From a virus, in IMG/VR virus record IMGVR_UViG_3300006919_000285, positions 1-29,442 of that record: 29,442 nt of DNA. One strand, written 5' to 3'. Below are positions 729 to 27,082 of the stretch, in pieces; the stretch's first letter is position 1; each line of letters begins with the position of its first letter. The notes under the pieces were generated by a model, which did not search any database, was not told the DNA's origin, and saw only the letters and a list, made by a program, of their open reading frames with translations. The translations under genes and the position numbers were made by a program.

Positions 729-1175
729 TTATACTTTTTCTAATCTCACCATCAAACGTTCAGCACGATTGGTCACTTGTTTGTGCCATCGTGAATCACG
801 TCCCTCAACTGCCGCTTCTGCCCAGTCACCTGCTTCGAGTGCAGTGTTGAATTTTTTGAACTGTGACAAACGAGGGCGGCCCATGTTGAACATCATATTA
901 ACAACTACCTGTTGCACTTCTTCGGGAAATCCTTCGAAGGTGTCTTCACCGTAAAGTACATGACATTCTGAGATAGAAGTGTCGAGGTCTTTCTCGAAAC
1001 ATTCCCATACTCGTTCTTTCGAGACTGGCGTTCCGAATTCTTGTCCCCATTCCGCATCATTCTCAGTAATAAGGTGACCAACACCAAAAGTGTGAAGTCC
1101 GAGATGGTCTGCATATACCTCGTATACCACCCCCTCATCTACCTTTAGTGTTTCGAATACTGCTTTTCTGTCCAT
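729..1175 (-). CDS. e: T4-type lysozyme (glycoside hydrolase family 24 muramidase)
   Basis: This 148-residue enzyme should cleave the MurNAc-GlcNAc bond of peptidoglycan. It aligns with T4 lysozyme: the catalytic triad is present as Glu14 (in KVDEG), Asp23 (YADHLG) and Thr29 (HTFGVGHLIT), at the T4 Glu11/Asp20/Thr26 spacing. The later VVVNMMFNMGR and SRWHKQVTNRAERL segments match the family's C-terminal lobe. It has no signal peptide, so export would need a holin, for which the EF-hand membrane protein two genes downstream is the candidate. An AAGGA ribosome site lies 8-9 bases before the ATG, inside the end of gp51. The hub protein gp5 in this window lacks the lysozyme domain it carries in T4, so this is the only visible muramidase. 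It could be an endolysin, a virion enzyme or both. Confidence 0.92.
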   Translation of the reverse strand: MDRKAVFETLKVDEGVVYEVYADHLGLHTFGVGHLITENDAEWGQEFGTPVSKERVWECFEKDLDTSISECHVLYGEDTFEGFPEEVQQVVVNMMFNMGRPRLSQFKKFNTALEAGDWAEAAVEGRDSRWHKQVTNRAERLMVRLEKV

Positions 1176-1177
1176 AT

Positions 1178-1354
1178 CTATTTCCTTTTGTGACGTTCTT
1201 TCTCTTCTTCTAGATAATTCATTAGTAATGTCAAATAAATTTCTCTTTCCCAGGGTATCATATTATCAAGTTCAGTTAAACTATATTTATGATGTTGCAT
1301 TAATTGAAAATTTGTGTTGTAGTAATTAAACAACGATTCGTGGGAAAGAGCCAC
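1178..1354 (-). CDS. 51: gp51-like baseplate hub assembly protein (tiny; GTG start or -1 frameshift product)
   Basis: This is a short frame missed by length cut-offs. From the GTG at 1352-1354 it encodes 58 residues, and from the first ATG (1298-1300) only 40. The core KYSLTELDNMIPWEREIY, followed by LLMNYLEEEKER, is a motif I recall from gp51 proteins of marine T4-like phages, which are much shorter than T4 gp51. The gene follows gp26 and precedes lysozyme, as expected for hub-assembly genes. Neither start has a well-placed ribosome site: GAGGGG lies 18 bases before the GTG, and nothing precedes the ATG. The frame is instead open in -1 relative to gp26 across its T8 tract, so it may be translated mainly as a 293-residue gp26-gp51 fusion. 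A TAGTG stop/start overlap (also used at 8476) is the alternative. Confidence 0.7.
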   Translation of the reverse strand: MALSHESLFNYYNTNFQLMQHHKYSLTELDNMIPWEREIYLTLLMNYLEEEKERHKRK

Positions 1355-1378
1355 TAAAAAAAATTTTGTATTCCCCTC
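1340..1378 (-). promoter_or_regulatory. Candidate -1 programmed ribosomal frameshift site at the end of gp26
   Basis: Read on the minus strand, the last sense codons of gp26 are CAA AAT TTT TTT before TAG. The heptamer T_TTT_TTT (1357-1363) fits the X_XXY_YYZ slip pattern in the gp26 frame. A Shine-Dalgarno-like GAGGGG (1373-1378) lies 9 bases before it, similar to the stimulator spacing of dnaX. A small hairpin follows at once: GTGG (1351-1354) pairs with CCAC (1340-1343) around a 7-base loop. A one-base slip back bypasses the stop and enters the gp51 frame through TTA GTG GCT. The arrangement is seen in the sequence. Actual frameshifting is inferred. Confidence 0.55.
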
Positions 1379-2058
1379 AGTACTTTACTTTGATTTGTTT
1401 GACAATTGGTACACTGAAAGTTTGATGTTATGGTCAAACTGGGTGCATCATCAAAAAAACTACCAAGTTTCCCTAACTGTTCAAAGGTTAGACTCTCAAC
1501 AAATTCATCCAAATCTTCAGAGTCCACTTCTGAACAATGATAGACGTTGTTCTCATCAAAAATCATAACCATCGAAGATTTGAGTATTTCGAATAATTGT
1601 TGAGATGCATCGAGGTTTGTTATACTAGATAAAGTTTTTAAAGATGGTAAATCTAATTTTACACCAACACTATCGGATATCATTACATTGTTATCTTCTG
1701 GTAAACTACCTTCAACTTCGGCCGATTCTAAATTCAATTCTACTTTGTTGGATGTTTTACAACTGTCATTTTCACATGTTATCATTACAGACGCAGTTTC
1801 ACCGATTGATACTGACCGAACTTTTAAGAATAACCACTCCATATCAACTGAACAAAGTTTATTTGGTTCTACTTTGTTATCTGTAACAGACCTCAATAGT
1901 TGTTTGACGGATTCAACTATTTGTTCATTATCTTCACTTTCTTGTGCAATAACTAATATTTTTTGTTCTTTCACTAAGAATGGTCTGTACTCAACCGTTT
2001 CTTTATTAACAGGTAAAACTGTTTTGTATTTTGGTGCGGTTTGAATTGGTAACGCCAT
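1354..2058 (-). CDS. 26: gp26-like baseplate hub assembly protein / tail assembly chaperone
   Basis: This 234-residue protein has the features of the T4 gp26 family as found in marine phages: an N-terminal YRPFLVKEQKILVIAQESED block (residues 24-43), a central helical region, and paired cysteines C95/C100 and C216/C219 (CTNC) that could form a zinc ribbon. It ends with GIQNFF. T4 gp26 has 208 residues and acts in assembling the central hub. A GAGG ribosome site 8 bases before the ATG supports the start. It sits between the gp54-like gene and gp51. The last codons form a T8 slippery run overlapping the gp51 frame, so the gene may encode both gp26 and a longer fusion, by analogy with lambda gpG/gpGT. 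That analogy is inference. Confidence 0.82.
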   Translation of the reverse strand: MALPIQTAPKYKTVLPVNKETVEYRPFLVKEQKILVIAQESEDNEQIVESVKQLLRSVTDNKVEPNKLCSVDMEWLFLKVRSVSIGETASVMITCENDSCKTSNKVELNLESAEVEGSLPEDNNVMISDSVGVKLDLPSLKTLSSITNLDASQQLFEILKSSMVMIFDENNVYHCSEVDSEDLDEFVESLTFEQLGKLGSFFDDAPSLTITSNFQCTNCQTNQSKVLRGIQNFF

Positions 2059-2075
2059 TATATATCCTCATAATT

Positions 2076-2801
2076 TTATGGTAGACCCAATCTACCCAAT
2101 ATTGACCTTGCAGAGTCAATTTTAGTCCCTGCACTTCTAACTGTCTCTCTTAACGAACCACCATCACCACCAAGTCTATCGACTACCGAAGCGACATCAC
2201 CCGCAACATCAAGTACTTGTCTTCCAGTATTCAGTTGTGAATCTAAGACTGATGGTTCTGGTAAGTCGTTATACTTAGTGGTGTAATACCTAAAGGCAAA
2301 TTGCACTTCTTGTTGCAAAATGATATCAGTACTATCATAGTCAAGTTGTTGTGCTGCGATAGTAACAGGAAATGCATCGTGTAAAATGGTTGTATGAGAA
2401 ACACTACCATCACTTCTTAAATGATTTACATGTACTTGACCAACGTATTCGTTTTGATAAGAAAACTTTGGTTTGTATGTTGCGTCATTACCTTCTGATA
2501 CACTACCGTAGATGAAATTGAACCACGATTCAAACACTTGTTTTTCTGCAAATGAATTATCACACATGAAACTAAATGATGCAGTTGCATCGTATGCAAC
2601 TTGTTGTGGCATTGTATCAACTACACCGTAAGTTGAAAATGGTGTTGTTTCTAAAGTTTTTCCAGGCATGATTGCGGATTTGCATAAAATTGCATCCACA
2701 GATATACCCAAAGGCGGGCAGAAAAAATATGTAGAAAATTTGTTTGGCCTTGCTGCATTACCTATTCTTGATTTTATTCTATCTACACTTAGTTCTGACA
2801 T
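2076..2801 (-). CDS. 54: Tail-tube-fold protein, probably gp54 baseplate tail-tube initiator
   Basis: This 241-residue protein carries the pattern of the T4 gp19/gp54 tail-tube fold: FSTYFFCPPLG near residue 22, an AIMPGKTLETTPFSTYG segment (43-59), YDATASFSFMCD, FESWFNFIYG, and LHDAFPVTIAAQQLDY before VQFAFRYYTTKY. After about residue 180 the tail is Gly/Asp/Ser-rich and probably flexible or helical. In T4, gp54 sits on the gp48 cap and starts tail-tube polymerisation. gp48 is present across the divergent promoter. The placement beside gp26 and gp51 favours gp54 over the major tube protein gp19, but the choice rests on context. The start ATG overlaps the stop of the upstream gene (TAATG), so translation is coupled. 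Confidence 0.72.
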   Translation of the reverse strand: MSELSVDRIKSRIGNAARPNKFSTYFFCPPLGISVDAILCKSAIMPGKTLETTPFSTYGVVDTMPQQVAYDATASFSFMCDNSFAEKQVFESWFNFIYGSVSEGNDATYKPKFSYQNEYVGQVHVNHLRSDGSVSHTTILHDAFPVTIAAQQLDYDSTDIILQQEVQFAFRYYTTKYNDLPEPSVLDSQLNTGRQVLDVAGDVASVVDRLGGDGGSLRETVRSAGTKIDSARSILGRLGLP

Positions 2802-14054: not shown

Positions 14055-17000
14055 ATGAGTAGACTAGATCTAACTCAGAAAATATCTCAAGAACTGATGG
14101 GGCTTCTTCCTGAATTTATAAGGGAAGACGCCCCTCTTTTTGAGCAATTTTTAAAAGCATATTTTGAATATCTCGATAGTGAAATCATTATTATAGATAC
14201 ACAATCCGAGATAGACTTTGTTGGTCTTGAATCTGGTGGAGCCCTTTTATTTGAAGGTGCAACAACTGCACCGTCTCCAGATAAAGACACATCAAAAGTA
14301 GTAGCCGAATCTACTCCCAATAACCCATTTACCTTTGTATCTTCTTTAGAAGTTGGTGAATATATTTACGGTCAAACTACAGGTACTTTAGCCGAACTTG
14401 TTGTAATTAATCAAAGTATACTACATGTAAAGACAATATCAGGATACGGTTTTCTTGAAGGAGAAACCGTAGAAGGAAGAACATCTAGGCAGACATTTGT
14501 AGTAAAAACCTACAAAGAAAATACGATAAGAGCTAACAACAATCTATTAAATTATTCTGATATTGATAGAACAACAACAAACTTAATTGAATATTGGCAG
14601 AAAGATTTTATTCCTTCGTTGAACTTTGGTGATGTTCAAACTAATCGTTTAGCACTGAAGAACATTGGACAATTCTATAAGCAAAAGGGTAACATAGAAT
14701 CTATAAAGTATATCTTAAGATTGATTTATGGTTCTGACTCAGAAATATTCTATCCAAATGAAGTAACTATGTACGCATCGACCTCTGATTACAGTCAGAG
14801 GAAACGTATGTCCATAGAAATGGTTAATTCTTTAAGGACACCAGAACCTACAGATAAAATAACTGAATATGATAATCTAGATAATATTGTTGCCCAATCA
14901 ATCATCGAATCAGTTTCATTTTTGGGAGATGGTTTATATTCGATTGATATCAATAGAGTTCTCAGTGATAATTTTACTATTAATTCATTAGTTAAGTTAC
15001 AAGACCGTGACGGTATCACTGAATATGAAGCTTATGTTCGTGGTATAATGTCAGGTGTTCAAATTGGAGAAAGTTCAACTTATCTTTCTGATGAACAGGA
15101 TGTTGACAGTATTATCGTTTATGAAGATGATTCTGGTATCTTATTGGAAAAGAACTCCATTGGGACAAACTATAGAATAAACGATAAGATAAACTTCACT
15201 GCATCTAGAGATGACGATGGTGTTAGAGATGCAACAGGTTTTGTATCCGATTTGACATCTGGACCAGTAGAAGAAATTATAATCGCGGACCCTGGTTCAG
15301 GATTCTTTTCCACATCGTTCATACCTATTGAATTCCCTGTAGAAAATTCATTTACTATTGCAATTACAGGGGAGTTGGACAGTGTAATACAGCCCGGTTT
15401 GAGAATTTTAGGTCTTGACGGACCTGCTAGAAAAATAGTATCAGTCGCAAACGATAGACAGTCTTTTACTCTAGACAGTAAAGTAACGTTAAAAGTTGGT
15501 GATTCTATTCAGATAGAAACGCCTCAATATATTGTATTCGATAACAACAACACTGGTGGTGACGGCGCAGTTGGTCTTTTAGGTTCTGTAAGTGACCAAA
15601 TCATTCTTGAAAATGCCCCAGATATATTTGGTCAATATGAATTCTTTTCTGAAGCTGGTCAGACTATAATATCAGGTAAAGATAATTATGGTCGTAGATT
15701 GATATTCGACAACAACACAGTTGAAGTTTGGGTTGATGAAATCTTAAGGCAAGAAAACGACAGCACTTATGGATACACAAAACAAAATGACAGAATTGTT
15801 TTTAATAATCCTCTGCAAGCCGGTCAAACAATTGACATATACCACGAATATAATTACTTAACATATGAAGATAATGGATACATTGGTTTAGAAAACGATT
15901 TTAAAGTTTTGACTGGAACTATAGACTTCACTTTAAGCTCAGACATTATTATTGGTACAAACACAATCTTCACTGAAGAGTTAAAAGTAGGTGACACATT
16001 AGTAGATTCTAATGGTTTAAAATATAAAATCGAACAAATCAACAATAATACCTCTGCAACATTAGTTGATGACGCTACTGTTACGCAAACAGAAACTAAT
16101 GTAAAAAGAATAAGAGACGCTGGTGCTATCAGAAGTATCATACTACAAGACGCTGGGTATTCATATAAAACTGTACCTAGAGTTTTTCCTGGTGGTTACA
16201 TATATTTCACCAATACATCTGATATTGATATCTTCCAAGAAAATGAAGTTATAACAGGTCAAAACTCTGGTGCACAATGTACTGTATTGAATATAGAAAA
16301 GAATAAAAGACGATTAGTTGTAAAGAAAGAAACTAATCAATCAGGGTCATTCTTATTCGGTGAAGCTATCCAAGGTAATGTTGGTAATCAATCTGTAATA
16401 CCATCTGGATTTAATATTGCTGCGGGAACTGGTGCAGAACTTTATGCATATGGTAGTAATATTGGTGGTGTCGCTGAAATCAATATCACCGACCAGGGTG
16501 GTAGATTCGATTCGTCTGGTCATCTGGATGAATCTTCCACATACAACATGGTTATACGAACACCATCATCTGCATTGAACAGAGACCAGGTATTTACTGG
16601 AAGAATATCAGGTGCCACTGGTAAAGTAATTTCATATGACTCAGACAGACATATTCTTTACTATACAGAATTGAACGGTAGTTTTCTATTCAACGAATAC
16701 GTTGACTATGCATTAGTGGATGAATTCCAAATTCTCAAAGTTGATGAATTTAATGCTAGAGGTAAACTATCAACAAGGGCAGATGTAGAGAGACAACTGA
16801 CAGGTGATGCTGGTACAATAAGCTCAACAGGTTCAGTATTGCAAGACAGTTTATATTATCAAACACACTCTTATGTAATTAGAACTGCTGAATCCATCAA
16901 CGTTTATCGTTCTATTATTAAGGATTTGGTACATCCGTCAGGACATATTTTCTTTGGTGAAGTTTCTATCCAAAATCAGATTAGAGACTCCGCAATCGAT

Positions 17001-18332
17001 ACCAAGTTCGAACCAACGATTATTATTAATGGGGACCCTGTTTTGGGAGTTCCGAATGCGTTTGAAAATTCCATTAGAATTTTCGAAATGTTTACACGGT
17101 TGGTCACACTCTGTACAGAGGATGGTGATAATGTATTGATGGAAAATGGAAGTAGGATATCAGTTTCTACCGATGACCAGATAAACATAATTAATGACCC
17201 TCTAACGGTTTTGAGAGACGCTAATGAACCTAAAGGACCAGAAGGCAAAAGAACAGGTCCCGATGTTGACCCAAGAACAGGTGAACCTTTAGCACCATAT
17301 GAAATTGTTGATAGTATTCCAATTGGTGCAACCACAGAATACTATGACAGTGGTTACCGTAACCAACACTTCAATTTGAAAATTATATCCGCCTTTGCTA
17401 GTGCGGCCCAGAGGAACAGACTCGCCAATAGATATACAAATGTCAGTCCTGATACTCTAGAATACATCTCACAAAAACCATATATTTCTTTAACTGGAGA
17501 TGTGCAAGAAGGTGATTTCCCAGTACTTACTCACAACGGATTTAGTGACCCACAAAGAGATTTTGGTGGTGGTCTAACTGCTTTGAGTTTGGATATGCCA
17601 AACCCTGTAACTGAAGGTGAACCAACAAACTCATACCCAAGAAACAGTTCTGGTTCAGGTAAGAACCGTTTCGGTGGTGTTGATGGATACTTTATTCCTG
17701 AAACACGTAAACTTGCAACTCAAGGTAAAATTTTATCTTACAGTGTTAGAGGTGAGGAAGGATTTATCTACGAGGATGGTGGATATATAGAACAAGAATT
17801 AGAATATGGATATATGAGACTGGAAGAACGGCGTGATGCTGAAGTTAAAGGTATCTTTGGTGATGTCATTCTTTTAGAAGATGAGTCTGGTTCTGTCTTA
17901 GTTGAAACCGATACCATAGAACAACCAGCTGGACATCTAATATCGGAACGTTCATATTCCAACGAAGGTCATTACATTTATACCGAAGATGGTTTTACAA
18001 TATGCACTGAAGATAACGAAAGAATTATAAATGAATTAGGTTCTCAAGGTTCAATATCTTCATTTGTTCCATTAGGGACATCTGTTGGTAGTCTAAATAG
18101 AATAGCTGGACAAAGAACGTACAGAATTTCTTATTATATACAGCAAGAAAATAGTGACAATATTATCTTAGAAGATGGTATTGGCACAATATTATCCGAA
18201 TCGTCAGAATCGGAAGGTTTAACACTAAACCAATTGGGCCAGTTGTTCGATTGGAGAATATCAGATTTTCAAAGTCATAGTAGACAGAGAACTTATGTCA
18301 CTTATGGTTCATACGTTGTATCTGGTGCATAA
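14055..18332 (+). CDS. 7: gp7-like giant baseplate wedge protein
   Basis: This 1425-residue protein is longer than T4 gp7 (1032). The N-terminus LTQKISQELMGLLPEFIRED and FLKAYFEYLD, then IEYWQKDFIPSL and NIGQFYKQKGNIESIKYILR with LIYGSDSEIFYP (about 185-235), is the wedge signature I associate with gp7-type proteins of marine T4-like phages. Much of the rest is modular beta sequence: three GQTTG/SGA-type modules (about 100-152, 725-782, 845-890), Gly-Tyr turns, and repeated EDGxGxxLxE strings toward the C-terminus. Its position between gp6 and gp8 supports gp7. An AGAGGTAG site precedes the ATG. The name rests on position and the N-terminal pattern rather than on full-length similarity. Confidence 0.68.
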   Translation: MSRLDLTQKISQELMGLLPEFIREDAPLFEQFLKAYFEYLDSEIIIIDTQSEIDFVGLESGGALLFEGATTAPSPDKDTSKVVAESTPNNPFTFVSSLEVGEYIYGQTTGTLAELVVINQSILHVKTISGYGFLEGETVEGRTSRQTFVVKTYKENTIRANNNLLNYSDIDRTTTNLIEYWQKDFIPSLNFGDVQTNRLALKNIGQFYKQKGNIESIKYILRLIYGSDSEIFYPNEVTMYASTSDYSQRKRMSIEMVNSLRTPEPTDKITEYDNLDNIVAQSIIESVSFLGDGLYSIDINRVLSDNFTINSLVKLQDRDGITEYEAYVRGIMSGVQIGESSTYLSDEQDVDSIIVYEDDSGILLEKNSIGTNYRINDKINFTASRDDDGVRDATGFVSDLTSGPVEEIIIADPGSGFFSTSFIPIEFPVENSFTIAITGELDSVIQPGLRILGLDGPARKIVSVANDRQSFTLDSKVTLKVGDSIQIETPQYIVFDNNNTGGDGAVGLLGSVSDQIILENAPDIFGQYEFFSEAGQTIISGKDNYGRRLIFDNNTVEVWVDEILRQENDSTYGYTKQNDRIVFNNPLQAGQTIDIYHEYNYLTYEDNGYIGLENDFKVLTGTIDFTLSSDIIIGTNTIFTEELKVGDTLVDSNGLKYKIEQINNNTSATLVDDATVTQTETNVKRIRDAGAIRSIILQDAGYSYKTVPRVFPGGYIYFTNTSDIDIFQENEVITGQNSGAQCTVLNIEKNKRRLVVKKETNQSGSFLFGEAIQGNVGNQSVIPSGFNIAAGTGAELYAYGSNIGGVAEINITDQGGRFDSSGHLDESSTYNMVIRTPSSALNRDQVFTGRISGATGKVISYDSDRHILYYTELNGSFLFNEYVDYALVDEFQILKVDEFNARGKLSTRADVERQLTGDAGTISSTGSVLQDSLYYQTHSYVIRTAESINVYRSIIKDLVHPSGHIFFGEVSIQNQIRDSAIDTKFEPTIIINGDPVLGVPNAFENSIRIFEMFTRLVTLCTEDGDNVLMENGSRISVSTDDQINIINDPLTVLRDANEPKGPEGKRTGPDVDPRTGEPLAPYEIVDSIPIGATTEYYDSGYRNQHFNLKIISAFASAAQRNRLANRYTNVSPDTLEYISQKPYISLTGDVQEGDFPVLTHNGFSDPQRDFGGGLTALSLDMPNPVTEGEPTNSYPRNSSGSGKNRFGGVDGYFIPETRKLATQGKILSYSVRGEEGFIYEDGGYIEQELEYGYMRLEERRDAEVKGIFGDVILLEDESGSVLVETDTIEQPAGHLISERSYSNEGHYIYTEDGFTICTEDNERIINELGSQGSISSFVPLGTSVGSLNRIAGQRTYRISYYIQQENSDNIILEDGIGTILSESSESEGLTLNQLGQLFDWRISDFQSHSRQRTYVTYGSYVVSGA

Positions 18333-18335
18333 ATA
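18328..18335 (+). promoter_or_regulatory. Late promoter box (CATAAATA) before gp8
   Basis: CATAAATA overlaps the gp7-like stop codon and lies 33 bases before the gp8 ATG. A normal leader with GGAG at 18355-18358 follows. It matches the relaxed NATAAATA late box. It would give gp8 and the 2399-residue gene their own late transcript. Confidence 0.5.
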
Positions 18336-18368
18336 ATTCTAAACACAATTTCATGGAGAAATTTTTAA

Positions 18369-19838
18369 ATGGCTGCAATCATTTCCTCGAAGTTTCGTAC
18401 ACATAACGCGAAACAATTTAAAGAAGATTTTGGGGAGAACGTATCCTCAACTTATATTTTCATTGGTAGGTCATATTCATGGTCTAACGATAGTGACCCA
18501 CCCGCTCCGGCCAACTCTGTTGGTGAGGAACACGAAGCATTTGATGATATGATTGCACTGAAAAAGGTCTCATCTGCTGATGTTTCTCATGGATTGACTA
18601 GATATGATTGGACTCTTAACACAATCTATGATGAGTACGATCATACTATCAGTGCAACGAGTCCTTCTTCTGCAACTTCAGCGACTTCTGTTTACGATTC
18701 ACGTTTCTATGTTGTTACAGATGAGTATAATGTATATAAGTGTATTCGAATGGGCAGAGATTCAGCTGGCACTGCCGTTGCATCTACAACAAAACCAACT
18801 GGTACAAGTTCTACTCAGTTAGTTTTCGGTTCTGAAGGCGGTGGCGGTGGATTACCGTATATCTGGAAATATATGTATTCTATTTCTGCGGCCGATACTA
18901 TTAAATTTGTGACTAATGACTTCATTCCAGTAAAAACTTTAGGTGCAAAAGCTTCAATTAACGGAACTGGTACAAACGGTGAACTTGGAAGTAGTGCAAC
19001 TGATGATGGTACATCACTTTGGGATGTGGAAAATGATTCTGTCGATGGCGCAATCTATCATTATAGAATTCTTGATGGTGGTAGCGGATACACAAATGGT
19101 ACTTACGACATCAACGTAGATGGAGATGGTTCTGGTGCAGTTGTTAGGGTGGAAATTGCATCTAATACAATTAACCAAGTTTATGCGTTAGATGCAGCTT
19201 CATACGGTTCTGGTTATCGTAGAGCGACTGTTGACACATCATCTCTTCCTGCTGGTAATAGTGGGGTAATTTTACCAATCTTATCACCTATTAATGGACA
19301 TGGAGCTGACCCAGTTGAAGAACTTGGTGGAAACTTTGTTATTGTAAACTCAAGACTTGAGTTTGCTGAAGGTGCTGGTGATTTCCCGACAGATAACGAT
19401 TTCCGCAGAATTGGATTGTTACAAGACCCATTTGTAGTTGGTCAGACAACACTAGCTACTGGTGATAACTATGCAGCATATTTTAAAATGGTTGTTAGTT
19501 CAACTGCACAGCTGACTGTTGATGACATCATATTCAATGCATCTTCAAATGGTTCTGGTGTTGCAGCATCTAGAATTATATCTATTAATGCTTCTTCTAG
19601 AGAAGTTTCACATGTACCCATTGCTAATAGTGGTGGTTCCTATGTCAACTTTGTGAATGGAGATTCAGTCTATTTGAATGGTGTGCAAGTCGCGACTGTT
19701 GATAATCCAAATGGAATTAACGCAGCTTTCCCAGAAATCCAAAGATTCAGTGGTAACATTATGTACTTAGAAAATCGTGGTGCGGTAACACGCGCAGCTG
19801 ACCAGATTGAGGATATTAAATTAATTATTGAGATGTAA
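18369..19838 (+). CDS. 8: gp8 baseplate wedge protein
   Basis: This 489-residue protein is longer than T4 gp8 (334). Its ends match T4 gp8 closely: SSKFRTHNAKQFKEDF at the start, IFIGRSYSWSND, DDMIALKKV, SHGLTRYDW, YNVYKCI, YIWKYMYSIS, FVTNDFIPVKTL, and the closing GNIMYLENRGAVTRAADQIE with an Ile/Leu-rich end. The extra length comes from a Gly-rich middle insert (about 235-300, with GGSGYTNGTYDINVDGDGSG and a second GSGY turn) that resembles modules in the neighbouring giant proteins. gp8 forms a homodimer that bridges gp7 and gp10 in the T4 wedge. GGAG before the ATG supports the start. Confidence 0.93.
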   Translation: MAAIISSKFRTHNAKQFKEDFGENVSSTYIFIGRSYSWSNDSDPPAPANSVGEEHEAFDDMIALKKVSSADVSHGLTRYDWTLNTIYDEYDHTISATSPSSATSATSVYDSRFYVVTDEYNVYKCIRMGRDSAGTAVASTTKPTGTSSTQLVFGSEGGGGGLPYIWKYMYSISAADTIKFVTNDFIPVKTLGAKASINGTGTNGELGSSATDDGTSLWDVENDSVDGAIYHYRILDGGSGYTNGTYDINVDGDGSGAVVRVEIASNTINQVYALDAASYGSGYRRATVDTSSLPAGNSGVILPILSPINGHGADPVEELGGNFVIVNSRLEFAEGAGDFPTDNDFRRIGLLQDPFVVGQTTLATGDNYAAYFKMVVSSTAQLTVDDIIFNASSNGSGVAASRIISINASSREVSHVPIANSGGSYVNFVNGDSVYLNGVQVATVDNPNGINAAFPEIQRFSGNIMYLENRGAVTRAADQIEDIKLIIEM

Positions 19839-19882
19839 TTAAATTTCAATTGTTTCGGTTTAAGAAAAGAGCTTGAGGAAAA

Positions 19883-22800
19883 ATGGTAGAAAAAACTAAT
19901 TTAAATGTTTCGCCTTATTATGACGATTATGACGAGGATAAGAATTATCATAAAATTCTCTATCGCGCAGGAAGACCAATTCAAGCTCGTGAATTGACGC
20001 AAACTCAGTCTATATTACAGAATCAGATTGAAAAATTTGGAGGACATTTTTTCAAGGAAGGTTCCATTGTTCAAGGTGCACAATTAGATATCAATTCTAA
20101 TACTTTTTATGTAAAAGTAGAATCATCTAACCCAAATTCTAATGGTGATTCTAACGTCAACACATACTTGTCTGATTTTGTTGGTAAGTTTTTAAGAGGC
20201 CAAACAACAGGTGTTATCCTGAAGGTTTCTGATTTCAGTGAACAGACAACATCTGACCCAGCTACACTTTTTGGTAATTTCATCACCCAAGGTACGGATG
20301 CTTTCAACTCTTTCGGTTTTATAGGTAATGAGGTGTTGGAAGAAGTTACTTTAAACTCTGATGGGGTACCAACTGTCAATGCTGGTAACAACAATCAATT
20401 TCAGATACCCGAGTTTATTAAAACTAACCCATCTGTTGGCCGTTCACTTTCAGCTCAAATTTCTGAAGGTTTAGTCTACACTAGAGGTTTTTTTGTATCT
20501 GTTCCTAAACAATCAATTATCTTAGAAAAATACACAGCAAGGGGGACTTATAAGGTAGGTCTCTCAATAACGGAAACAAAAATTTCTTCAGCTGATGACG
20601 TGTCTTTGAATGATAACTCTCAAGGTACAAGTAATGAAAACGCACCTGGAGCAGATAGACTTAAGATTAGTTTGACTTTATCCAAAGAACAAATCTCTAC
20701 GGTAGAAAATCTTAATTTTATTGAGATGGGCCGTGTCCTTCAAGGTAAAGTTAGAAGTGGTGTCAAAAAATCCGTCTATGGAGAGTTTGAAAACACTTTA
20801 GCTAAACGTACTTATGATGCTAATGGTGACTTTGTTGTACAAAAATTTGTAGGTACAACGAGAGAACACCTGAACACAGGAACAAATAATGGTGTTTACG
20901 AAGCCGATGACGGTGGTCTTGAAAAGAATTTTGTTCTGGAAATTAGTAAAGGACAAGCATATGTAAAGGGTTATGATATTACAAAAATCTCAACTGAATT
21001 TGTGACGTTGAATAAAGCTCGAACTACAGCATCTCTAGAAGGTGCATCTACATCTGTTAGACTTGGAAATAATATCAAAATTACAAATACCCATTCTATG
21101 CCAGATTTGGGTAGTGAGACAACATCCACCAACACTTTCGGTGTTCTTAAATTCTATGATGGGACAATTTCAACACCTGGTGTTGCATCATCCTCGAATA
21201 TGATTGGATACGGCCGTGTTAGGGACGTTTCATTATCAGATGGTACTGACACATCTGGAATTTATGACGATACTTCTGTTTTCAATTTAAGTTGTTTTGA
21301 CATTAAGATGTTCACTAAATTGACAGGAACTACTTCTACTGCAACATTCGAGGCTGGAGATAAAGTTACTGGTGCCACATCTGGGGCTACAGGTATTGTA
21401 TCGGAAGATGTACTTTCTGGTGGTTCAGAAATATATGTACATGACGTAGTAGGTACATTTCAAGTTGGTGAATCAGTCAATGCAAGGACAAATACCGCAA
21501 CTATAGCTACGACTACAGCGGTACGTTCGTATAATATTGACAGAGTGCGTTCAGTTTTTGCATCAACTGCATCTGGTGGTACTAATTTTACTGCTGACTT
21601 AGTTTTAGATTCTAATGTCGTTCTTACTGGTACCATTACTTTAACAAACGGTAATGCAACAATGTCTGGTTTTCTGACTAGATTTGTTTCAGAGTTAAAG
21701 GAAGGTGATATTATTGTTGGTGGTGATGGTACAGAGGCAATTGTATCATCTGTTACTGATGGCACAACTGTAACACTAACTGCACCATATTCAGGCTCAA
21801 ATTTTTCTGGTAACGTAACCAGAAAAAGAACTAAAATAGATAAGCAAAGTCAGACTGCAAATATTTTTGCTTTCCCCAGAGATTACGTTTCAACTAGTAG
21901 TGTTGGAAGTAATACTTTTAGAAAACAAGAAATTGTTACAATAAGTGGTGGTCAGTTTATTGTAGAAACGGGTTTAGCGAATACGGAATTAGGTTCAGTT
22001 AGTGACCCCAATTCATTTATTATATCAGTGTTAACTGCTGGTTCAGGTAGTTCACCTTTACTTGCTGCTGGTGATGTTATTGATTTGACTGACCCTAGTT
22101 GGACAAAATCTGTCACAACAGGTGGTGGTGGTGTTGGTGAAAAAGTTACTGTATCGAGTGGAAGTAATATTAATGCTGATGATAACAATGCTCAACTTCT
22201 AGTTACTTATACTGTTGATTACACAAATCAGACAAGAAGGTCTAAAACATTACGTGAAGCTAGATGTTTGTCATTTGAATCTTCAAATTCGTCTGGGGTG
22301 TTTTACGGTACTGCATACGACCATAAAGATTTGTGTTTAGGTGTTTCTGATGTATTCAGAATCAGGGGTGTCTTTGAGGGAGTTGGTGGTTCTACACCTC
22401 TTCCACCTAGTGCACAGTTTTTAGACCCTTCAGCTGTCTTCTCAACCTTTGAAATTGTTGTTGGTCAAACAACAGGCGTTCAAGCTAAAGTCATAAAATA
22501 CGATGCATTAGGCCGTACTTATTTTTACTACTTAAACGAAGGTGAGTCGTTCAATGAGGGAGAATTTATTGTAGGACAACTTTCAAAAGCACAAGCTGAA
22601 ATTAATGGTCTTAGTGCGGGTTCACCCAATATAGCCTCTCGATACTTTTTTGACAATGGACAGAGAGATGGATTTTATGATTTATCCAAACTGACTCTTA
22701 AACCTGGTTCACCCTCACCAAACAATCCTATTTTAGTTTTGTTTGATTATTTCACAGCTTCTGGTGGTGACTTTTATGATGTTGGTTCTTATTCGGGTAT

Positions 22801-25800
22801 TGATTATTCAGAAATTCCTGTTTATTCACCAAACAAAGTTGACCTTGGTGGTCTAGAACCAGATGGTCAATTTGAATTATCTGATGCTGTCGATTGTAGA
22901 CCATCTGTTGGCCAGGTTTTGGGATTGAGTACATTTTCATCCAATAACCCAGACCCAGAATCACCTCTTAATATTTCTGACAATGTTGGTTCTGGTGCTC
23001 GATACGCACCTTTTAGTTATGAAAATGGTAGGTCTTTTGCATCAACTAGACCAAACATCACAGTAACAGGTTCATCACCTATCCACACCCCTGTTACAGG
23101 AACTAGTTTCAATAGTGATATTGAATTTTATGTTGCTAGAATAGATAGGGTATTCTTGAACAAGCAAGGTAAGTTCCAAATATCAAAAGGTGTTCCCGCA
23201 ATCACACCACAAAGACCTGGTGTAATTAATGATGCCATTGAATTATATGAAATTTATGTACCTGCGTATACGAAAAATTTAGCCAATGTATCTATAAAAA
23301 CTAAAGATTACAAACGTTATACGATGAAAGACATTGACCGTATAAACAAACGTTTGACAAATCTGGAACAGGTTACTGCACTTTCTCTTCTCGAATCTGA
23401 AGCACTATCAAAGCAGATTCTAGATGGAGATGGATTGGACCGATTTAAGTCTGGTTTTGTAGTAGATAATTTCAATAATCACGGTATAGGTGATGTATTG
23501 CATCCTGATTATTCCTGCTCTATCGATGCTAAAAGAGGACAAGTCAGACCGGCCGGAGCAACAGTTAATGTTGATTTGAAAATGAATCATGCATTATCCA
23601 AAAACTTGTTCTGGCATTCAGACAACATTGTCACTTTACCATACGGTGTTATCAATTACATTGAAGCAGATAAAGCATCTAGGTCTATTAGTGTAAACCC
23701 ATACACAGTTTATGACTACAAAGGTAAAATGAAACTAAGCCCTTCGCAGGATTTATGGTTTGATATAACCGAAACTGAAACTGCTAAAACTGGTAATACA
23801 TTATACGATGCAGTTTTTGTTAAGTCTTCTGCTGAAGCTCAAACTTTAGGTGTTGAAGATGGGGAATTGATGTCTACGGTTTGGGGTGGTTGGCAGACAG
23901 ATTGGTCTGGTTCTCCTTCTGAAACTATAGAAACTACAAATATTGCTGGTGGATGGGATGGTGACCCAACTCAAGCTGGTAATTGGGTTCAGGGAACAAC
24001 AATTAATAGAACCATAACTGAACAAGTTGAGGGTCAAAGTAGGAATGGTATTCAAACTTCTGTAGTTGAAAACTCAACCACAGAGACAGGAAACAGTCGT
24101 TTGAAATCTGGTGAACTTCAACAGTATATGAGAGAAAACCAAATCTTTGTAACTGTTGATGGTCTCAAACCAAATACAAATCACTTTACATTCTTTGATA
24201 ATATCGATGTCAATAATTATTGTCAACCTTTAACATCATCATTCTCCACTAGAAATACGACAGTGATTGGCGATGGTTTGAGGTCTGATAGTAAAGGTAC
24301 ATTGTCATTCATATTCCACTTACCCAAAACAAAAAAATTAAAGTTTAAAACCGGGCAAAGAATGTTAAAGGTGACTTCAAGTTACTATGACTTGAATAAC
24401 CCATCATCGGTAGCAGTTAGTGAATACAGGTCAGATGGAACACTTTTAACTCAGGATACTGAAATTGTTACCACTCGAACCGTAACGTATGTTAATGAAG
24501 TTGTTTCAGAAACGCAACAGATAACGTCAACATCTGAATCTATTGCAACTGAACCCTATGGTGTGTCTACAAACTCTGTAGACGTTCCTGCGGATACTTA
24601 CAACATAACAAACGTTTATAATGATTATACGATTGTTAATCCGACTGAACCTGAACCAACACCTCCACCCGAAGTTGTAGATGTGGAAGAAGTCATTCCA
24701 CCAAATAATCAAAATACAGGTGGTGCTGAACTTGAGAATCCTGGAGATTCGGGCGATAACATTGTTGAAACTATTGCAAATGATACAAACAACCTTTCTG
24801 TAGGTGTTGTTCTTGGTGGTCAATCGAATTTTGTTGGTGGAACCATTCCTATATCATACTGCTTCACTGATGGAACATGCGACAGAGATAATGACGTGTA
24901 TGAACCAACTAGTGGGGCAGTTGAACCTGTAGCTACTGTTTATAATGTCACTTACGAGGGTTCAGATTGGGAAACTGGTGATGTTCCAAATTATGTTAAT
25001 GAAGCTGATATTATTGCAGCAGCTGCAGCTTGGTCAAATGGTACATCTGTTACTGTTGAACCAACTTATAATACTGCTGGTACTGCTATTACTGCACAAG
25101 CAACAACTACTGTGTCATCAGCACCAGCTGGAATTAGTTCACCGGATTCAATTTCTACGAGAATACAATCCTTTAGTGGCGAAGATTATTTTAGAGACTG
25201 GAAAGAATCAAACGAGAGAGGGTTTTGTTATGTTGACCCATTAGCACAGTCATTTTTGGTAACACAGCAAGGTGGTATTTTTTTACATGATGTTGAAGTT
25301 TACTTTTCAAAGAAAGACCAAAGTGGTGCTACAATTACCTGTGAAATTAGAAATATGGTTAATAGTCATCCTGGTAATAAAATTATAGATTATGTTTCAC
25401 TTAGACCAGGAAGTGTTAATGTTTCAGATAATGCTACGGCATCAACAAAATTCAAATTTCTCTCTCCTGTTAAACTGGAACAGAATGAAGAGTATTGCTT
25501 TGTTTTAATATCTCCATCGGCGGATTATGAAGTATGGCACTCACGTATTGGTGAAGCTGATATAACTACAGGTCAACAAATTTCATCACAACCATATCTT
25601 GGTTCAATGTTTAAGTCACAGAACACTAAAACATGGACACCAGAACAAACTGATGATATTAAGTTTAGATTGAATATATGCAACTTCAACCGAAACATGG
25701 TTGGATATATGAGATTGGAAAACAAGGATGTCACTTGGAAGAGGTTGAAGAGAAATCCGATAGAAACATTCCAAGGTCAGAACTATGTCAAGATAAACTC

Positions 25801-27082
25801 ATACTCACATGGAATGTACACAACATCATCTAGTGTTAGACTATTAGATGTTGAAGGTGACAGAAAAGATTCGGTTGTGGAAGTGACGAATAGAGTTTTA
25901 TCTGGTACTCCTAGTGATGGTACTTACACAGATTTAGATGTTGCATATGCAAGTGGTTCCGGTGGTTCTGGCCTGAAGGTCGATATTACTGTTGCATCTG
26001 GTGTTATTTCTGATTTTAGAATTTCCGATGTTGGTCAGGGATATTCTGTAAATGACAATCTAATTGTTAGTAACTTTAATAGTGGTGCAGATGTAACTTT
26101 TAATGTATCTTCAATTGAAGATACCATTGGTGGATTTCCATTAAATTCTATTAGATATGTAGCTGGAAATTCGTTAGCTGCATTCACTACAATAGCTAAC
26201 ATAACTATGGATTCCTTTACTATTATTCCAGACACTTCTTCTTATCAAGGTATCAATAAGTTGGAGAATGCTTGGACTGCATTAAATAGTACAAGTGCTG
26301 GTGGTAGACCGAGAATGCTGAAAAACGTTTATTATGATGTGGGTCAAACAATGATTCCTCATGTTCAACCACAAGGAACTAAAATATTCAGTAACATATA
26401 CCCAACAGCAATGTCTTCACCTGAAGGATTTGCACCTCAGACACCGTACTCTAAAGATAATGAATCGGTTTTCTTCACACTGAATGACAATATTTACTTT
26501 AATAGACCCAATGTTGTTGCCTCAAGATTGAACGAAGTTGATAAAATGCAATCTGAAAGGTCTCTGGATATCAGGATTCAATTCACAACAGATAATCCAA
26601 ATGTTAGTCCTGTTTTTGATTTAGAATCTATGGGGTTTGTTGCGGTGATGAATAGGATTAATAATATTGATACATCATCTGATGTTCCAACTGGGACCAC
26701 TTATGTTGCATCAACTGAACCAGAAGGTGATAACAATAAATTTGTATACGTAACTAAGAAGGTTGAATTACAAAATCCTGCAACTTCATTGAAGGTATTT
26801 GCAGATAACTTCAGACCTCTTGGAACAGAACTTGAATTTATGTATAAAATTATTAAAACGGATGAAGATACTCCTGTTGATGATATAGGATGGCGGTATT
26901 TTAACACCACTGGAACTTCAGATATTGAAATTGATGCTGATAGTAGGTCATTTAAAGAGTACTCATACACTGCTGATGATTTGCCAGAATTTATATCTTT
27001 TGCTATAAAGATTGTAGGTAAATCTTCTAACACATGTATCGTTCCTGTTGTAACTTCATTCAGGGCATTGGCATTAGCATAA
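19883..27082 (+). CDS. Giant DUF4815-type baseplate/fibre structural protein
   Basis: This 2399-residue protein is the largest in the window. The N-terminus KTNLNVSPYYDDYDEDKNYH, YRAGRPIQARELTQTQSILQ and IEKFGGHFFKEGS is the DUF4815 pattern of T4-like marine phage virion proteins. At about 1143-1215 a predicted coiled-coil (YTMKDIDRINKRLTNLEQ) and LHPDYSCSIDAKRGQ occur. A Pro/Glu-rich hinge follows at about 1580-1610. Near 1780, VDPLAQSFLVTQQGGIFL begins a conserved terminal domain with EVYFSKKDQ, SPVKLEQNEEYCFVLISPS and SQPYLGSMFKSQNTKTWTPE. It probably connects the wedge to fibres, in place of T4 gp10/gp9, but this is inferred from position. A TTGAGG site precedes the ATG. Confidence 0.85.
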   Translation: MVEKTNLNVSPYYDDYDEDKNYHKILYRAGRPIQARELTQTQSILQNQIEKFGGHFFKEGSIVQGAQLDINSNTFYVKVESSNPNSNGDSNVNTYLSDFVGKFLRGQTTGVILKVSDFSEQTTSDPATLFGNFITQGTDAFNSFGFIGNEVLEEVTLNSDGVPTVNAGNNNQFQIPEFIKTNPSVGRSLSAQISEGLVYTRGFFVSVPKQSIILEKYTARGTYKVGLSITETKISSADDVSLNDNSQGTSNENAPGADRLKISLTLSKEQISTVENLNFIEMGRVLQGKVRSGVKKSVYGEFENTLAKRTYDANGDFVVQKFVGTTREHLNTGTNNGVYEADDGGLEKNFVLEISKGQAYVKGYDITKISTEFVTLNKARTTASLEGASTSVRLGNNIKITNTHSMPDLGSETTSTNTFGVLKFYDGTISTPGVASSSNMIGYGRVRDVSLSDGTDTSGIYDDTSVFNLSCFDIKMFTKLTGTTSTATFEAGDKVTGATSGATGIVSEDVLSGGSEIYVHDVVGTFQVGESVNARTNTATIATTTAVRSYNIDRVRSVFASTASGGTNFTADLVLDSNVVLTGTITLTNGNATMSGFLTRFVSELKEGDIIVGGDGTEAIVSSVTDGTTVTLTAPYSGSNFSGNVTRKRTKIDKQSQTANIFAFPRDYVSTSSVGSNTFRKQEIVTISGGQFIVETGLANTELGSVSDPNSFIISVLTAGSGSSPLLAAGDVIDLTDPSWTKSVTTGGGGVGEKVTVSSGSNINADDNNAQLLVTYTVDYTNQTRRSKTLREARCLSFESSNSSGVFYGTAYDHKDLCLGVSDVFRIRGVFEGVGGSTPLPPSAQFLDPSAVFSTFEIVVGQTTGVQAKVIKYDALGRTYFYYLNEGESFNEGEFIVGQLSKAQAEINGLSAGSPNIASRYFFDNGQRDGFYDLSKLTLKPGSPSPNNPILVLFDYFTASGGDFYDVGSYSGIDYSEIPVYSPNKVDLGGLEPDGQFELSDAVDCRPSVGQVLGLSTFSSNNPDPESPLNISDNVGSGARYAPFSYENGRSFASTRPNITVTGSSPIHTPVTGTSFNSDIEFYVARIDRVFLNKQGKFQISKGVPAITPQRPGVINDAIELYEIYVPAYTKNLANVSIKTKDYKRYTMKDIDRINKRLTNLEQVTALSLLESEALSKQILDGDGLDRFKSGFVVDNFNNHGIGDVLHPDYSCSIDAKRGQVRPAGATVNVDLKMNHALSKNLFWHSDNIVTLPYGVINYIEADKASRSISVNPYTVYDYKGKMKLSPSQDLWFDITETETAKTGNTLYDAVFVKSSAEAQTLGVEDGELMSTVWGGWQTDWSGSPSETIETTNIAGGWDGDPTQAGNWVQGTTINRTITEQVEGQSRNGIQTSVVENSTTETGNSRLKSGELQQYMRENQIFVTVDGLKPNTNHFTFFDNIDVNNYCQPLTSSFSTRNTTVIGDGLRSDSKGTLSFIFHLPKTKKLKFKTGQRMLKVTSSYYDLNNPSSVAVSEYRSDGTLLTQDTEIVTTRTVTYVNEVVSETQQITSTSESIATEPYGVSTNSVDVPADTYNITNVYNDYTIVNPTEPEPTPPPEVVDVEEVIPPNNQNTGGAELENPGDSGDNIVETIANDTNNLSVGVVLGGQSNFVGGTIPISYCFTDGTCDRDNDVYEPTSGAVEPVATVYNVTYEGSDWETGDVPNYVNEADIIAAAAAWSNGTSVTVEPTYNTAGTAITAQATTTVSSAPAGISSPDSISTRIQSFSGEDYFRDWKESNERGFCYVDPLAQSFLVTQQGGIFLHDVEVYFSKKDQSGATITCEIRNMVNSHPGNKIIDYVSLRPGSVNVSDNATASTKFKFLSPVKLEQNEEYCFVLISPSADYEVWHSRIGEADITTGQQISSQPYLGSMFKSQNTKTWTPEQTDDIKFRLNICNFNRNMVGYMRLENKDVTWKRLKRNPIETFQGQNYVKINSYSHGMYTTSSSVRLLDVEGDRKDSVVEVTNRVLSGTPSDGTYTDLDVAYASGSGGSGLKVDITVASGVISDFRISDVGQGYSVNDNLIVSNFNSGADVTFNVSSIEDTIGGFPLNSIRYVAGNSLAAFTTIANITMDSFTIIPDTSSYQGINKLENAWTALNSTSAGGRPRMLKNVYYDVGQTMIPHVQPQGTKIFSNIYPTAMSSPEGFAPQTPYSKDNESVFFTLNDNIYFNRPNVVASRLNEVDKMQSERSLDIRIQFTTDNPNVSPVFDLESMGFVAVMNRINNIDTSSDVPTGTTYVASTEPEGDNNKFVYVTKKVELQNPATSLKVFADNFRPLGTELEFMYKIIKTDEDTPVDDIGWRYFNTTGTSDIEIDADSRSFKEYSYTADDLPEFISFAIKIVGKSSNTCIVPVVTSFRALALA

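Follow-up and report, generated by a model that had tools for sequence, protein, structure and literature searches.

The window, by which we mean the whole stretch of DNA analysed, is a 29,442-base record of an uncultured virus and includes a region for a T4-like tail and baseplate, with a tube cap, wedge subunits, a hub/lysozyme and a DNA end protector. On its minus strand a tail tube family gene is followed by a gp26-like gene and then by a gp51-like reading frame (Table 1), an order resembling V-G-T of phage lambda. Residues 9-234 of gp26 match the T4_baseplate family PF12322 (3e-50), and the protein also matches phrog_150 (7e-53). The gp51 reading matches phrog_634, annotated 'baseplate hub assembly catalyst' (7e-27), as well as the C-terminal part of phrog_150.

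Unlike in lambda, the next reading frame after gp51 is not a tape measure gene but a phage-lysozyme family ORF (729-1175, minus strand; PF00959, 1.5e-7), lying directly 3' of gp51. Several relatives have a tape measure gene nearby at this place, and it was found close downstream of gp51 in phiM12, Cr30 and HTVC008M; none was seen in the window. Further along the same strand, a small ORF (181-519) has an EF-hand match (PF13202, 1.5e-6), a calcium-binding motif unusual for a phage protein, and its C-terminal half looks hydrophobic by eye. On the plus strand, two very long ORFs of 1425 and 2399 aa occupy the region 14055-27082, the first of them matching baseplate wedge and virion structural families.

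At the end of gp26 the minus strand reads ...CTG AGG GGA ATA CAA AAT TTT TTT TAG TGG..., as the earlier note had described: the gene ends on T_TTT_TTT directly before TAG, GAGGGG lies 9 bases upstream, and the -1 frame is open from the slip site into gp51, where it continues to position 1178. From the slip site this frame reads FF-LVALSHESLFNYYNTNFQLMQHHKYSLTELDNMIPWEREIY..., and joining it to gp26 gives a predicted fusion of 293 aa, the length that had been proposed. Among the 23 ATG-initiated ORFs of at least 100 aa in the window, gp26 alone carries an X_XXY_YYZ heptamer within five codons of its end. Since the arrangement is unique among these ORFs and is kept in relatives, it is more than chance would give. 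A second in-phase heptamer of slippery type, A_AAT_TTT (1360-1366, minus strand), overlaps the start of T_TTT_TTT, so that the window has tandem slip-type sites.

Table 1. Features of the gp26-gp51 junction and the adjoining tail tube gene in the window.
Feature	Position	Strand	Basis
Tail tube family protein	2076..2801	(-)	phrog_45, 2e-30; directly upstream of gp26
gp26-like gene, predicted chaperone short form (TAC-N), 234 aa	1354..2058	(-)	PF12322, phrog_150
SD-like element GAGGGG, putative stimulator, ends 9 nt 5' of heptamer	1373..1378	(-)	sequence and relatives
Slippery heptamer T_TTT_TTT, inside a run of 8 T	1357..1363	(-)	in phase with gp26
gp26 frame-0 stop TAG, directly 3' of heptamer	1354..1356	(-)	junction sequence
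GTG in TAGTG, overlapping the stop of gp26; conceivable but improbable own start of gp51	1352..1354	(-)	no SD in range
gp51-like extension in the -1 frame, predicted TAC-C, 59 residues beyond the slip, then a stop	1178..1357	(-)	phrog_634 and coding signal of the -1 frame in relatives

We compared this junction with those of related phages, as the earlier note had proposed. A scan of IMG/VR with gp51, from which we retained the 80 best loci, was supplemented by S-CAM1, P-SSM2 and S-PM2; in this first set gp51 lay in the -1 frame in 84 of 84 junctions. Adding further named phages and removing duplicates gave a final set of 82 distinct junctions, while searches of viral_contigs with S-CRM01, ValKK3 and Phi1 queries yielded only a few extra loci. 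The heptamer T_TTT_TTN was present in 81 of the 82 (T_TTT_TTC in 48, T_TTT_TTT in 27 and T_TTT_TTA in 6), although these relatives share ancestry and the counts given here are not counts of independent events. The near-exception, locus L065, has G_TTT_TTT. In every frameshift-type junction compared, from IMG/VR relatives and named phages alike, gp51 was open and in the -1 frame.

The same layout was found in phiM12, P10VF (with T_TTT_TTG), Cr30, P-HM1, HTVC008M, MA10 and S-B68, and also in KVP40, S-PRM1, S-CRM01, Mosig, S-CAM1 and P-SSM2. The slippery run, the -1 frame and the Shine-Dalgarno (SD)-like element are common to T4-like phages of the cyanophage, pelagiphage, KVP40, Sinorhizobium, Rhizobium and Caulobacter types. 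The stop codon of gp26 lies 0-1 codon past the slip in 78 of 81 junctions, and the predicted junction peptide of the P-SSM2 type reads ...LQSFFRISMAHEDLESYYK.

The nucleotides of the slip site are constrained beyond the amino acids that they encode. The first of its two Phe codons is TTT in all 81 junctions, compared with 77% TTT among Phe codons elsewhere in these gp26 genes, and the codon before the pair ends in T in 81 of 81, where about 66% would be expected. This preceding codon is AGT, AAT, GAT, TCT or GCT, meaning that its amino acid varies while the final T is kept; the Z base of the heptamer is free across the 81 junctions. Fixed X and Y with a free Z is the constraint that a ribosomal slippery heptamer predicts, although nominal probabilities for these biases are overstated because the junctions share descent. 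We therefore regard it as extremely improbable that the frame changes by slippage of RNA polymerase on the T run: the 8 T of the window are near the range for such slippage, but in 54 of 81 relatives the run stops at 6 T with a C or A behind it, and runs of 6 T are shorter than is typical for transcriptional slippage. The dependence on codon phase and the SD-like element both point to the ribosome rather than to the polymerase, and with T runs this short and interrupted, transcriptional slippage is disfavoured.

The other route to gp51 would be its translation as a separate small protein, either by termination and reinitiation at TAGTG or from an ATG inside the frame, at codon 21 counted from the slip. 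TAGTG is present in the window, where the GTG overlapping the stop in principle allows reinitiation, which we counted against a frameshift; the codon-21 ATG is present in 79 of 81 junctions, and starts of this kind are given for gp51 in some annotated records (P-SSM2, and Mosig with a late ATG). However, just 8 of 81 junctions have a GTG or ATG at the position of this overlap, and 68 of 81 are free of ATG, GTG and TTG from 10 codons before the slip to 6 codons after it. The claim that gp51 has no well-placed start of its own was borne out, since in the window neither the GTG at 1354 (+2.2 kcal/mol) nor the late ATG (+2.4 kcal/mol) has a Shine-Dalgarno sequence, and in no relative does the codon-21 ATG have one (mean +0.45 kcal/mol).

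Moreover, the coding signal extends upstream of this ATG. Over -1-frame codons 4-19 after the slip, the stretch that precedes the usual first ATG (codon 20/21), differences among relatives fall at codon positions 1, 2 and 3 in proportions of 27, 20 and 52%. With 52% of the differences at the third position, codons 4-19 appear to be translated in the -1 frame. This conserved coding reaches from the codon-21 ATG back to the slip site, and a separate start of gp51 would leave the synonymous constraint on the heptamer unexplained. Given the scarcity of start codons, the lack of Shine-Dalgarno sequences and the coding upstream of the ATG, we rejected independent translation as the main route to gp51 and consider it very unlikely.

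Turning to possible stimulators, the relatives carry an SD-like GAGGG at -14 to -10, with GG at -11/-10 in 81 of 81 junctions. The duplex of this segment with the anti-SD averages -6.5 kcal/mol over the 81 junctions, compared with -4.8 kcal/mol for synonymous recoding, which indicates that the pairing is kept beyond coding need. The site that precedes the start of gp26 itself pairs less well (mean -4.8 versus -6.5 kcal/mol), and in the window the SD-like segment reaches -8.3 kcal/mol. The downstream GTGG/CCAC hairpin, which had also been suggested as a stimulator, was rejected on both thermodynamic and comparative grounds: structure downstream of the slip in the window has a z of -0.26, and RNAalifold, which does not cover pseudoknots, gave zero consensus pairs over 64 nt in 20 relatives.

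Taken together, the junction has an in-phase heptamer, a -1 frame that is open and under coding selection, and a candidate SD-like stimulator upstream; a downstream stem-loop or pseudoknot, which is common at -1 frameshift sites but not universal, was not found in the window or in the 20 relatives (pseudoknots not being covered). In bacterial dnaX a slippery heptamer is accompanied by an SD-like stimulator about 10 nt upstream and also by a downstream stem-loop. The gp26-gp51 junction resembles dnaX in the first two elements and differs from it in the third, for which the window and 20 relatives gave no counterpart.

The best reading of these data, and the one that the earlier note had put forward by analogy with lambda G/GT, is that a programmed -1 frameshift very probably joins gp26 to gp51 as one recoded gene for two tail assembly chaperone forms. 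Most ribosomes would stop at TAG and give gp26, the short form (TAC-N). A minority would pause near T_TTT_TTT, aided by pairing of the upstream GAGGGG with 16S rRNA; the two Phe-tRNAs would slip back by one base and translation would resume in the -1 frame, giving the gp26-gp51 fusion as the long form (TAC-NC). Reasoning from lambda, we would expect the short form to coat the tape-measure protein and the gp51 extension to bring in subunits of the tail tube or hub. What the comparison shows are the sequence features and the selection on the -1 frame; that slippage takes place, how efficient it is and that the products act as chaperones are inferences.

Like lambda G/GT, the pair lies behind the tail tube gene and would yield a short form together with a product fused by -1 frameshifting. 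The lambda heptamer is G_GGA_AAG, and no sequence homology was found between gp26/gp51 and G/GT. An AlphaFold2 model of gp26 built with 65 sequences (pLDDT 90.8) matched, in Foldseek, the gp26/gp51 families of other phages; against the PDB the HK97 tail assembly chaperone (2ob9_B) appeared at rank 42 without significance (E = 1.7, probability 0.11), and a profile search of PDB sequences with gp26 gave no relevant match.

The T4 genes 26 and 51 belong to the same protein family as the pair in the window but, unlike it, are two separate genes on opposite strands with no recoding. Frameshifting is reportedly conserved in several T4-like groups, with T4 said, in an abstract from 2022, to use genes 26 and 51. 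The gene 51 product of HP3, Phi1, Aes508, 31.2 and O157 typing phage 3 has about 250 aa. Residues ~1-201 match PF12322 in the three of these proteins scanned (1e-54 to 1e-43), and across all five the final ~50 residues, when aligned, are 31-40% identical to gp51 of the window. A T4-type gp51 is therefore a single polypeptide with a PF12322 domain and a gp51 tail, so that the fused architecture exists as a protein. T4-type gene 26 consists of the PF12322 part only, stopping roughly where the slip site would be. The window thus has the gp26 domain in its short form and an extension homologous to the T4-type gp51 tail, and because these architectures correspond, the recoded marine gene and the T4 pair would give the same two products. 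The two products that T4-type phages obtain from separate genes appear, in marine phages, to come from slippage.

In a tree of 27 sequences, which has long branches and leaves out the Campylobacter gp26, the T4-type 26 and 51 proteins are sister groups (84/84), and the phiKT1024 pair together with the CPt10 gp51 forms a separate group (97/96). In the Vibrio phage phiKT1024 (L091:611-1953) the gp26/gp51 paralogues stand in tandem, and in the Campylobacter phage CPt10 (L103) they are about 10 kb apart. Their grouping tentatively hints at a second, independent duplication. Duplication may have replaced the frameshift on two or more independent occasions: in the T4/RB49/Aeromonas group, where 26 and 51 lie on opposite strands, and in the Campylobacter (CPt10/CP220) and Vibrio phiKT1024-type phages, where the paralogues are distant or tandem. 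The marine group, including the window, would have kept the recoded gene with the SD-like element as its only detectable stimulator; we put this history forward as a possibility somewhat short of even.

The earlier note knew of no description of a frameshift at this gene pair, a view overtaken by the literature. Judging from its title and from papers citing it, the work of Vladimirov, Gautam & Davidson (Virology 2022, doi 10.1016/j.virol.2021.11.003) identified the T4-like tail assembly chaperone genes; the PRFect paper (PMC10885494), citing them, notes T4-like phages in which a short gene and a fused, longer one take the place of frameshifting; and PMC12846349, also citing them, describes T4-like TAC-N genes with poly-T signals for -1 slippage. 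Since the T4-like frameshift was published in 2022, the window, from an uncultured relative, is a new example and not a new discovery. What we contribute are the counts on synonymous constraint, on the SD-like element and on the lack of downstream structure, and the gain over the 2022 report lies in breadth and quantitative support.

Finally, many cyanophage and pelagiphage genomes have gp51 annotated as a separate gene, begun at an arbitrary late ATG, or missed altogether. In S-CAM1 (L081) and S-PRM1 (L110) gp51 is wholly unannotated with the -1 frame intact; a natural single-gene fusion in records of the S-CAM1 type, hinted at by one annotated feature under the match, was dismissed, gp51 being merely unannotated there. 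If the frameshift is true, such annotations of gp51 would be wrong, and the 'gp26' and 'gp51' of marine phages would be the short and long products for which T4 has separate genes. These phages would then offer natural pairs in which to study the need for two forms and the ratio between them.
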